A stretch of DNA of 64,000 bases, taken from positions 62,001-126,000 of the forward strand of contig NZ_FRBE01000006.1 of the NCBI RefSeq assembly GCF_900142535.1, written 5' to 3'. Within the stretch, counting starts at the first letter, position 1. Each line of letters opens with the position of its first letter. This document shows positions 12,399-17,649 of the stretch, one piece after another. The position numbers were made by a program, and so were the translations under genes. This stretch comes from Fibrobacter sp. UWEL. Its GTDB lineage: Bacteria; Fibrobacterota; Fibrobacteria; Fibrobacterales; Fibrobacteraceae. Under the pieces are notes generated by a model. The model searched no databases. It saw only the letters and a list, made by a program, of their open reading frames with translations, and was not told the DNA's origin.

Positions 12399-12506
12399 AA
12401 TCGAACTCGCAGCTAATATAGCTTTTCTGCAAGTACTTTTGCAATATTAGGCACTTTCTAAATATGCACGTCCAATGATTGCACCGTTTTATGCTATATT
12501 CGTGAC

Positions 12507-12717
12507 GACATAGTTCCCTGCCGTGAAAGCGGCAGGGAACGCAGGTTTAATTGAGAGTTTTGCTCTTATTCTCTGTCCTGAAACTACCACTTTCAAAAGC
12601 ATACGAGGATAAGGCAGACGCTCACGTCCCATTGGGGCGTGGGCCGTTTGTGCTTATTGTGTGCAAGGATGTGGTAGTCCGCAGGACAGGTAAGCCATTC
12701 GGTACCACGCCTTTTTT
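12507..12717 (+). ncRNA. structured RNA candidate upstream of the restriction-modification gene
   Basis: A 5-prime hairpin (12513-12523 with 12530-12540, 11 bp) is closed by a GAAA-type tetraloop. Then a long rod forms: CTGTCCTG (12573) with CAGGACAG (12682), CTACCAC (12584) with GTGGTAG (12671), GCATAC with GTGTGC, GATAAG with CTTATT, CAGAC with GTTTG, and an 11-bp apical hairpin at 12620-12644. A small hairpin 12689-12706 precedes T6 at 12712-12717. An extended -10 (TGCTATATT, 12492-12500) lies just upstream. Whether it is a free RNA or a leader of the downstream gene is open. No known RNA class was recognised. Confidence 0.65.
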
Positions 12718-12739
12718 GTTGGATCGCATTGGCTTTTGA

Positions 12740-12764
12740 GTAAGGTAAAACCTTACCGGGAGCC
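12740..12764 (+). promoter_or_regulatory. hairpin next to the ribosome-binding site of the R-M gene
   Basis: GTAAGGT and ACCTTAC pair around an AAA loop (12740-12756), directly before CCGGGAG (ribosome site) and ATG 12768. GGTAAG at 12689-12694, at the end of the RNA candidate, could pair with CTTACC (12752-12757) instead, so two folds compete beside the start site. Confidence 0.4.
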
Positions 12765-12767
12765 CTT

Positions 12768-15700
12768 ATGAGCGGAATTGACGCCAACAAGAAGAAAGCA
12801 GTTGAAAGTTATGTTGCCGAAGTCGGCCAACATTTTTCTGCAGGCATCGCTACAGAGCATAGCTACCGTCCCGCCTTAACGGACCTGCTAAAGGCTCTGC
12901 TCCCGAAATTCATCGTGATGAACGAGCCCGCCCGCATTGAATGTGGCGCACCCGACTTGATTTTGGCACGAGACGCCAACGGCATTCCCGTTTCCGTTGC
13001 GTTCGTCGAAGCGAAAGATGTGGGCGATTCCGATTTGGATGGTAATCGCCAGCATAAAGAACAGTTCAACCGCTACAAGAAATCTCTGGACCACATCCTG
13101 TTTACGGACTACCTAGATTTTCATCTCTACGAAGGCGAAACGTTCGTTGACAGCGTCCGCATTGCAGAAATCAAGGGCAATAAAATTGCGGTTGCAGAAG
13201 ACAATATTTTAAAGTTCCTCGAAATGGTGGAAAGCCTCGCTGGGGCCACACCGCAAAAAATCACCAGCCCCAAGAAAATGGCCGAGATGATGGCGAACAA
13301 GGCCAGGCTTTTAGCCGACGTGGTAGAACGCACCCTTGCTGCGGACACCGAGAAAACCGGCGAACTGGCTGGACAATGGAAATCCTTCAAGACAACCCTT
13401 ATTCACGATTTGACGGAACGCCAATTTGCGGACATTTACGCACAGACCATTTGCTACGGGATGTTTGCAGCCCGACTCCACGACGAAACTCCCGATACAT
13501 TCAGTCGCGATGAAGCCGCCAACCTTATTCCTAAAACAAATCCCTTCCTACGAAAAATTTTCCAGAGCATCGCAGGTTATGATGTTAGCGAAAGCATCGT
13601 CTGGATTGTAGATGACTTGATTGAATCCTTCCGCGTGACAGACATTCACAAGGTCATGGCGAACTTCGGCAAAAGTACCGCACAGACCGATTCCATGATT
13701 CACTTTTACGAAGACTTCCTCCGTTGTTACGATCCAAAACAGAAGAAAGCCTGCGGCGTCTATTATACTCCTGAACCGGTTGTGAAATTCATCGTCAACG
13801 CAGTTGATGAAATTCTGCAGAAAGATTTCAACATGCCCATGGGACTTGCAGACACAAGCAAAGTTCAGTTGGACAGAATTGTCGATGGAACCTCCGACAA
13901 GAAAAGCAAGGACCACAAAGTTCACGAAATGCGTGAATATCATAAGGTTCAGATTCTCGATCCCGCTACAGGTACAGGAACTTTCTTGGCGGAAGCTGTC
14001 CGAAAAATTCACAGCAAAATGGAAGGTCAGCAAGGAGCATGGCAAAGCTATGTGGAAGAACATCTATTGCCTCGTTTGAACGGTTTTGAATTTATGATGG
14101 CTCCTTACGCCGTAGCCCATTTGAAGTTGGATATGGTTCTTGGCGAAACCGGATACAAAGCAGCAAAGGATAAACGTCTCCGTATTTTCTTGACCAATTC
14201 CTTGGAAGAATGTGACCCCGATACAGGAACATTATTTGCGCAATGGTTAGCACAAGAAGCTAACGAAGCCAACTACATCAAGCGCGATACACCTGTGATG
14301 GTGATGATTGGAAATCCACCGTATAGTGTAAGTAGCAGCAATAAAGGGGAGTGGATAGAAAGACTTCTTGAAGATTACAAAAAAGATTTGAATGAAAGAA
14401 ATATTCAGCCTTTATCTGATGACTACATAAAGTTTATCAGGCTCGCTCATTACTATGTAGAAAAGAATGGCGAAGGCATTCTAGCATATATTTCAAACAA
14501 TAGTTTTATCGATGGGATCATTCATCGTCAAATGCGAAAAGAATTGATGAACGCATTTGATTCCATCTACATTCTTGACTTACACGGCAATACTCGAAAG
14601 AAAGAAGTTTCTCCCGATGGAAGCAAGGATGAAAATGTCTTTGACATTATGCAAGGCGTAAGCATCAATATTTTCGTCAAGACGAAGAACAACAATTCCA
14701 CGCGTCATTCCGAACAAAAAGCTAGCAATCCCTCGTGTCATTCTGAGCGAAGCGCAAGCACCCCAGCGCGTCATTCTGAGCGTAGCGTAAGCGAAGTCGA
14801 AGAATCCAGCAACCTCGCAAACGTTTACCATTTCGAACTATTCGGCAAGCGTGAAGATAAATACGAGTATTTAAGAAAGCATTCTTTTAACGATGTTCCT
14901 TGGACCAAATTGAATCCGCAGGAACCACAGAATTTCTTTGTGCCGAAGGATGAAAATATTCAACTTGAATACGATGGGCATATCCCAATTCAAAAACTTT
15001 TAAATATAAATGTCAACGGAATAAAAACGCAATGTGACGGAGCATCTATTGCTTTTTCTGCAAAAGAGAGAAACGAATTAAAGCAAGATTTTATTTCACT
15101 TAGCGAAGATGAAATCCATCGTAAATATGGATTCAATAATGTAAGAGATTGGCAAATTCCACTAGCAAAAAAAGACATATCAGAAAATAAAATAAAGGCT
15201 GAAATTTTGTGTTATCGTCCCTTTGATTTTCGGCATATGATTTTTACAGGAAAAACTAAGGGAATTATGGGGTATCCACGAGATAAATTTATGCAGAATT
15301 TTTATCTCGGCAACAATATCGGTTTAATTTTAGGAAGGCAAGGGCAAGCTGTTGGCAGTATGCAATGGAATTTGGCATATTGTTCAAAGCATATTGTTGA
15401 TACAAATATCTATTATCGCGGAGGTGGAATCGTCTTCCCTCTCTATCTCTACCCTACCGACGAAGAGGCTGCATTAGGCGAAACTCGCAAGCCGAATCTT
15501 GATGAAGAAATATGGCGAAAGATAGATAAGTGCATCCAGATTCCCGATCATCCCCGACAAGCGAGGACAGGTGTCGGGAATGACAATTCAAAGGAACACA
15601 TTACAACTCCGGAGCAAATATTCGATTATATCTACGGAATCCTACACACGCCCAGTTATCGCGAGAAGTACAAAGAATTCTTGAAAGTTGATTTCCCTCG

Positions 15701-16553: not shown

Positions 16554-16615
16554 AAACATCTAGACGAAGCTCTTCGCCTAGGTTGTCAAACTTTCAACCA
16601 AAAATGGAGATTTCC

Positions 16616-17278
16616 ATGATAAAAAACTTTATGGATCTTTGCAAAATTGCAGAAGATTATACAACATACCTCCAAAATAGAGGAATTAAATTCAATGCGA
16701 ATGGCTTCCCTTTTTTCACAAAAGACATGTTCCTAGAAGAAACGCCTGAACTAATGATCCCCTACGATTTTCGAAAAACTCGTATTGTAGAGCACCCTGA
16801 TAAAACACTTCTATGTTTTTATTGTTCCGATGCGAGAATTTACCCAAGGTTAAGCAACATATTGAACGATATTTCTGAATACAAAAAATATCTCGGTGCC
16901 GTAGCAACCGACGTTACCATAACATCCGACATGGATGAAGAATGGCAGGACTTCGTCATGCTATTGAATCAATTATTCATGGCAGTCCTTGTTGTAAACG
17001 GAATAAAAATCGTCGCCAACCTTAGAACAGGAAATAATAAAACTCACCGCAATCTTGGAGGGATTCCCGCAGGTGTAATGTGGGCCACAGGATTCCTTGG
17101 CTGTTCTAAAGACAAGCCATATGACATGCGCTTTATATCATCAATTATTACCGTACATCCATCAAAACTGCTAATATACGGAAAAAATGATCCTTGCGCA
17201 ACCGAAAAACTATCTATGATAGGAATACCATATCTCATTTACCCTGACTACCACACAATTAGAAAGGAGGTCGCATAA
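16616..17278 (+). CDS. DUF4417 family protein
   Basis: 220 residues. The order of elements (IPYDF opening, LCFYCSDARIYPRLSNILND, YLGAVATDVTI, NGIKIVANLRTG, IPAGVMWATGFLGC, HPSKLLIYGK) matches DUF4417 proteins, found mostly on phages and other mobile elements; the molecular role is unknown. GGAG lies 6 bases before ATG 16616, preferred over upstream TTG 16583 and ATG 16604. The stop overlaps the next start (TAATG). First gene of a tight four-gene cluster. Confidence 0.75.
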   Translation: MIKNFMDLCKIAEDYTTYLQNRGIKFNANGFPFFTKDMFLEETPELMIPYDFRKTRIVEHPDKTLLCFYCSDARIYPRLSNILNDISEYKKYLGAVATDVTITSDMDEEWQDFVMLLNQLFMAVLVVNGIKIVANLRTGNNKTHRNLGGIPAGVMWATGFLGCSKDKPYDMRFISSIITVHPSKLLIYGKNDPCATEKLSMIGIPYLIYPDYHTIRKEVA

Positions 17279-17649
17279 TGTCTAATGCAAAAGAAAAATA
17301 CTCCACCTCCGCAAGTGAATACGTCACCGGAATGACTACAGCATCAAACAAAGCAAAGGAACGTTACGAGAGAAGTAAAAAGAAAAAAGAGCAGTACAGC
17401 AAAAATTGGAAGGAACAAAAGATTAATATCAACGAACTAACGGATAAATACACCCCTGGGGTGGAGCCGAAAGTAAGCGGTAGTAAAATGATTTGGAAAA
17501 ATGAAAAATACGAAATAAAAGCTGATTTAGGAGTAGGATCTGCACGCGTTTTTGACAGAAAGCTCAAAAATTATTTAGATATAAACGGAGATCCTTGCAA
17601 CAACAACGACTTGACGCACTTTGGAATCAAGAAAAAGGAGGAAATGTAA
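17278..17649 (+). CDS. basic hypothetical protein, possible effector of a toxin-immunity pair
   Basis: 123 residues, Lys-rich. The first half is a charged helix (YERSKKKKEQYSKNWKEQK); the second half is a compact domain (SGSKMIWKNEKYEIKADLGV, RVFDRKLKNYLDINGDPC, DLTHFGIKKKEEM). No family recognised. It is preceded by GAAAGGAGG at good spacing and overlaps the neighbours on both sides by one base. Its net positive charge beside an acidic partner suggests the two proteins bind each other; a toxin role is speculation. Confidence 0.65.
   Translation: MSNAKEKYSTSASEYVTGMTTASNKAKERYERSKKKKEQYSKNWKEQKININELTDKYTPGVEPKVSGSKMIWKNEKYEIKADLGVGSARVFDRKLKNYLDINGDPCNNNDLTHFGIKKKEEM

Follow-up and report, generated by a model that had tools for sequence, protein, structure and literature searches.

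What a long folded RNA does directly upstream of a restriction-modification (R-M) gene is the question raised by one locus of Fibrobacter sp. UWEL, which lies in the window analysed here (a 64,000-nucleotide stretch of contig NZ_FRBE01000006.1). R-M genes need balance on entering a new cell, and the known forms of control, namely C proteins, methyltransferase repressors, and antisense transcripts, are each specific to one system. Judging from sequence, the folded RNA of Fibrobacter is probably a built-in switch that controls bacterial defence genes in general.

The RNA had been noticed in an initial annotation, which placed it at positions 12507-12717 and considered its pairing unlikely to arise by chance. 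This stretch folds at -102 kcal/mol, compared with -62.2 ± 4.8 kcal/mol for dinucleotide shuffles (z -8.3), and none of 200 shuffles equalled it; both the coordinates and the judgement were correct. The GAAA-capped hairpin (12 bp according to RNAfold, rather than 11), the small GAGAG..CUCU hairpin (12553-12566), and the rod were likewise found where they had been described (Table 1). The conserved unit is a core of about 12550-12717, which is preceded by the variable hairpin and the -10-like box.

Table 1. Features of the RNA and of the downstream gene, in window coordinates
Feature	Position	Strand	Basis or remark
TATATT, -10-like box of the putative promoter of the RNA	12495..12500	+	sequence; box at a fixed distance in the family
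Conserved GACATAG, probable transcript 5' end	12507..12513	+	start site inferred
P1, GC-rich GAAA-capped hairpin, variable	12513..12540	+	mainly in the short form
P2 hairpin (GAGAGTTTTGCTCT) and linker CTTATTCTC	12553..12573	+	antisense to leader 12738-12752; family-wide tests
Rod, covarying helices	12572..12690	+	covariation in family alignment
P3 helix of rod	12574-12580/12682-12688	+	
P4 helix of rod	12584-12590/12671-12677	+	
Variable helix of rod	12599-12604/12659-12664	+	
Apex helix of rod	12621-12630/12634-12643	+	
GAGGATAAG, alternative linker partner	12605..12613	+	linker pairing 93% formed, both-side changes at 5/7 pairs
Apex 3' strand GGGGCGTGGG, common to rod apex and terminator	12634..12643	+	covariation of both pairings
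CCACGCC-T6, 3' arm and U-tract of putative attenuator/terminator	12705..12717	+	pairs with apex 3' strand
Anti-P2 site GAGTAAGGTAAAACC in R-M gene leader	12738..12752	+	overlaps hairpin 12740-12756
Shine-Dalgarno-like GGGAG	12758..12762	+	sequence
Downstream gene, type IIG restriction enzyme-methyltransferase, 1099 aa	12768..16067	+	PADLOC REase_MTase_IIG, E 6e-289

Database searches revealed a family that is confined largely to one lineage. A DNA search gave seven matches within the window's own genome and at least one in each of the 37 genus genomes searched; 24 genomes from outside the genus gave none. Using a covariance model made from 31 copies, the RNA was identified in 79 of 80 genus genomes (all 40 of the good-quality ones) and in nine genomes from three sister genera of the Fibrobacteraceae; a single weak match was obtained elsewhere in the phylum. 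A relaxed search of further members of the Fibrobacteraceae produced a best match that was marginal (E 0.0018). The 16 good genomes surveyed for copy number hold 112 copies, a mean of seven per genome. A conserved 21-base pattern matches records of Fibrobacter succinogenes and F. intestinalis, together with a few metagenome bins tagged as other organisms. Six copies (L082, L093, L095, L100, L114, and L141) lie on contigs from bins tagged Bacteroidales, Bacteroides, or archaeon, which may represent mis-binned Fibrobacter contigs or transfer. In viral, phage, and plasmid collections, no copy was detected at the sensitivity used. Rfam 15 covariance models gave no match above the gathering threshold in the whole window and none for 12400-12800 at E up to 10. 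Among 20 relatives, Rfam yielded only three sub-threshold matches (E up to 0.5), all to unrelated families. A literature search of open-licence papers found no description of the family. The omega RNA of IscB, retrons, 6S RNA, and SRP RNA were dropped as candidates on the basis of the Rfam search, which gave no match. In two copies (L019:1502-1751 and L027:1408-1657), the outer helix strands mismatch each other yet match strands found in other copies, as though recombination had taken place between two copies.

The pairing counts are based on A2, in which 60 diverse short copies were aligned by sequence only. In A2, 86.6% of the rod is paired, and covariation, which the initial annotation had named as the check on the fold, is strong: both-side changes occur at 33 of 49 rod pairs and in 406 cells versus 146 in shuffles, a signal that is lost when partners are slid, although such counts overstate independence because related copies have common ancestry. 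The helices retain many G-U pairs. A helix proposed by RNAalifold at columns 128-146 of alignment A1 was rejected in favour of P4, which is given by the window fold and supported by A2.

In the family as a whole, a nearly invariant CCACGCC comes before the U-tract. The initial annotation had placed this element correctly and had described a small hairpin before T6; that hairpin is not the conserved terminator, in which CCACGCC pairs with GGGCGUGG in the rod apex. The resulting terminator pairing, GGCGUGG:CCACGCC-U6, is 94.6% formed, with both-side changes at five of nine pairs versus 0.4 in shuffles, a level reached by none of 500 shuffles. Divergent copies, for example L185/L195 and L256, alter both terminator strands together. 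The rod apex and the terminator pairing are mutually exclusive, as both need the apex 3' strand, and both covary. A further pairing within the RNA joins the linker UUAUUCUC to GAGAAUAAG; its extended version is weaker against shuffles.

Genes of many kinds follow the RNA. The survey covered 131 copies from 20 genomes. In 122 of these, the frame that comes first after the RNA shares its strand, and 69, of which six were assigned by hand from nearby genes, precede R-M genes (types I, II, IIG, or III). The downstream proteins form 51 sequence clusters from many unrelated families, whose representatives, surveyed with Pfam and PADLOC, include type I HsdM and HsdR, C5 methyltransferases, type III Mod, type IIG enzymes, EcoRI-type, D12, and other methyltransferases, and a Tsp45I-type nuclease. 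The window's own enzyme is classified by PADLOC as type IIG, and its homologue L266 carries the Pfam domains Type_ISP_C and N6_Mtase. Targets differ between forms of the RNA: R-M genes follow 23 of 23 tandem and 45 of 80 short copies, whereas 27 of 28 medium copies precede other genes. About half of the copies without an R-M target are followed by a signal-peptide-like start, as judged by a crude pattern, and several of these genes carry a Fib_succ_major domain. Viewed from the gene side, 46 of 145 methyltransferase-domain matches in 16 genomes have the RNA upstream on the same strand within 1.5 kb, whereas chance predicts about 0.003 per gene within 3 kb; most R-M genes thus lack the RNA, yet the two occur together far more often than chance would give. 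The initial proposal of a leader built for the R-M gene therefore holds in part: its strand, its position directly before the gene, its covariation, and its genus-wide occurrence agree with it, but with 69 of 131 copies before R-M genes and many others before secreted-protein or lipoprotein genes, the RNA is not specific to R-M. Because the window enzyme is a single-chain IIG protein and most targets are methyltransferase or first-operon genes, a delay in nuclease activity alone, as originally suggested, does not account for the family. The gene downstream of one copy encodes a bacterial EndoU nuclease domain (L247:6849-7496).

The position of the promoter box is also conserved. Of 128 copies, 76 carry a TA[TA][AT]TT box 11-16 nt upstream of the conserved [CAG]ATAG, compared with two expected after shuffling. 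The median distance from the U-tract to the start codon is 70 nt, and -10-like boxes are rarer in the terminator-gene stretch than in shuffles (2 of 66 versus 10.5); because of this depletion, read-through from the RNA's own promoter is the probable route to the gene. At the sequence level, the promoter box upstream, the terminator between RNA and gene, and the common strand are the arrangement of an attenuator leader.

A second link between the RNA and its gene was found in the first 30 nt of the core, comprising P2 and the linker, which are antisense to the terminator-gene stretch. Over 77 non-redundant loci, the mean duplex energy is -18.5 kcal/mol, versus -14.8 kcal/mol for shuffled controls (p 6e-12) and -16.4 kcal/mol for non-cognate leaders (p 5e-7). 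RNA segments at offsets 30, 45, 60, and 110 gave no antisense signal to their own leader, and those at offsets 90 and 130 gave weaker ones. Given that the pyrimidine-rich P2 could pair with any Shine-Dalgarno site, leaders of other genes were also compared: at the same loci, the P2 duplex reaches -17.4 kcal/mol (z -1.38) with cognate leaders versus -12.0 kcal/mol (z +0.13) with 127 other-gene leaders (p 4e-15). The 3' end of anti-P2 lies a median of 24 nt upstream of the predicted start codon. Several loci show no match, and in the window the duplex of P2 with 12738-12752 is -19.9 kcal/mol, which is borderline against shuffles (p 0.05). The initial annotation had instead proposed that GGUAAG competes with GTAAGG for CCTTACC. 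This is not the conserved pairing: the GGUAAG flank is 88% paired with the linker, with covariation not above shuffles, and was not counted as support; the supported contact is that of P2 and linker (12553-12573) with 12738-12752. Predicted ribosome-site accessibility rises from 0.39 to 0.48 when anti-P2 is blocked, versus 0.43 for a random block (p 0.025, n=50), a small gain that depends on predicted start codons and minimum-energy sites and that weakly supports activation. At tandem loci, the leader holds a second copy of its own RNA's variable 5' strand in 22 of 23 cases (local score 36.0 cognate versus 22.9 non-cognate, p 4e-4); alternatively, gene conversion could keep these copies alike.

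Riboswitches and transcription attenuators are 5' leaders with mutually exclusive antiterminator and terminator pairings. The Fibrobacter leader similarly has two mutually exclusive pairings; unlike these systems, its 5' hairpin is complementary to the leader past the terminator, and its target genes are unrelated. We consider it reasonably likely that the Fibrobacteraceae RNA is a cis-acting 5' leader with an attenuator, in which a P2 contact sets translation. Transcription would start at the RNA's own promoter and produce the structured RNA, and polymerase would either stop at the CCACGCC-U6 attenuator, formed with the apex 3' strand, or continue into the R-M gene. The rod state would sequester the apex, block the terminator, and leave P2 free; free P2 and linker would then pair with anti-P2 just upstream of the ribosome-binding site and set translation, the favoured effect being an opened ribosome site and an active gene. 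In the other state, the linker would pair with GAGAAUAAG, the terminator would form, and the gene would be off. The points counted for this model are the covariation of rod and terminator, the linker pairing, the promoter box, the same-strand gene, the scarcity of -10-like boxes after the terminator, the P2 match, the accessibility gain, and the leader repeats at tandem loci. Against it, the rod is predicted to be far more stable than the terminator pairing, which would then form only during transcription or with help, and the terminator loop, at least 60 nt, is unusual. Sequence evidence shows the fold of the RNA, its terminator pairing, its antisense complementarity to the own leader, and the lack of a recognisable second promoter; the other parts of the model, namely transcription itself, read-through, direction of control, alternative state, and trigger, are inferred. 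Complementary-repeat pairing that controls ribosome-site access, as predicted here, is also used by type I toxin-antitoxin RNAs, for example fst RNAI/RNAII (PMC3874152); in contrast to those, the Fibrobacter partners lie on one transcription unit, and there is no toxin peptide.

The main rival to a cis leader is repression in trans by the terminated RNA. Most transcripts would end at the U-tract, and the surplus of this RNA, pairing with the leader via P2 or, in tandem loci, via its 3' strand, would repress translation of the read-through mRNA and keep the R-M dose low. Promoter and terminator are both complete, the antisense site is located a short way before the ribosome-binding site, and there is a precedent in the antisense RNAs known for two R-M systems, EcoRI and Eco29kI (PMC3874152). 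As in these systems, R-M control in Fibrobacter would act at the RNA level through base pairing near the ribosome site (PMC3874152, PMC12707154). The EcoRI and Eco29kI RNAs are opposite-strand transcripts within one R-M locus (PMC3874152, PMC12707154), unlike the Fibrobacter RNA, a conserved structured family upstream of R-M types I, II, IIG, and III that shares the strand of its gene in 122 of 131 copies. Against repression in trans, the predicted effect of P2 binding is to open the site rather than close it, and mismatches in P3 and the variable helix are as many within genomes as between them (8.05 versus 7.84), giving no sign of selection against cross-talk. We therefore regard a separate trans-acting RNA as unlikely, though it is the alternative we take most seriously.

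A leader whose conserved apex binds a metabolite or host protein, as in a riboswitch, and so chooses between rod and terminator is less likely still; it is compatible with the cis leader and competes with it only over the trigger. The apex is the most conserved part of the RNA, with invariant columns, and a shared sensor would account for one leader on many unrelated genes, but the double pairing of the apex with rod and terminator partly explains that conservation, the target genes suggest no ligand, and no known Rfam aptamer was matched. The RNA of AbiF(Cd)/RCd22 and of type III toxin-antitoxin loci neutralises the protein to which it binds (PMC12373285). The gene order there is identical to that in Fibrobacter, with an RNA promoter, a structured RNA, a terminator, and a defence gene that seems to have no promoter itself and whose level is set by read-through (PMC12373285). 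That the Fibrobacter RNA binds the downstream protein is nevertheless very improbable: the 51 clusters span many unrelated families, secreted lipoproteins among them, rather than one cognate toxin family, the RNA has no repeated motif, and the match of RNA to leader suggests RNA-RNA pairing. Equally hard to credit is an element acting at the DNA level, such as a recombination or integration site or a dispersed repeat that folds as single-stranded DNA. The many dispersed copies would suit such an element, but the G-U pairs kept in helices, the fixed promoter position, the same-strand gene at short distance, and the match to the own gene's leader argue against it; an attC-like site was dropped given the G-U pairs and promoter.

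Returning to the cis leader, one leader RNA before R-M types I, II, IIG, and III would constitute a host-level solution to R-M balance and is directly testable. More tentatively, a single lineage-wide module might place any R-M system entering the Fibrobacteraceae under a common RNA switch, each copy being keyed individually through its variable helices together with a matching leader site at its own gene; if so, many defence systems unrelated to one another would share this one layer of control within a cell. The words riboswitch, small RNA, sRNA, and leader are all absent from a 2025 review of R-M biology (PMC12707154). Fibrobacter, a major rumen fibre degrader, also gains a putative regulatory RNA family, present in several copies per genome, with no match in the libraries searched.

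Additional features were observed around the R-M gene of the window. Downstream of it lie a DUF4417-like gene and a small gene (16583-17278 and 17278-17649), with no RNA copy found before the pair (16583-17649). The same pair also follows RNA copies near R-M loci in relatives, and its first gene is 31% identical to L154:7088-7798 (E 1e-27). Within the R-M gene, an in-frame repeat at 14700-14813 encodes RHSEQ..CHSERS..RHSERS and resembles a dispersed repeat inserted in the reading frame; the L263 methyltransferase contains a similar stretch, CHSERSEE.
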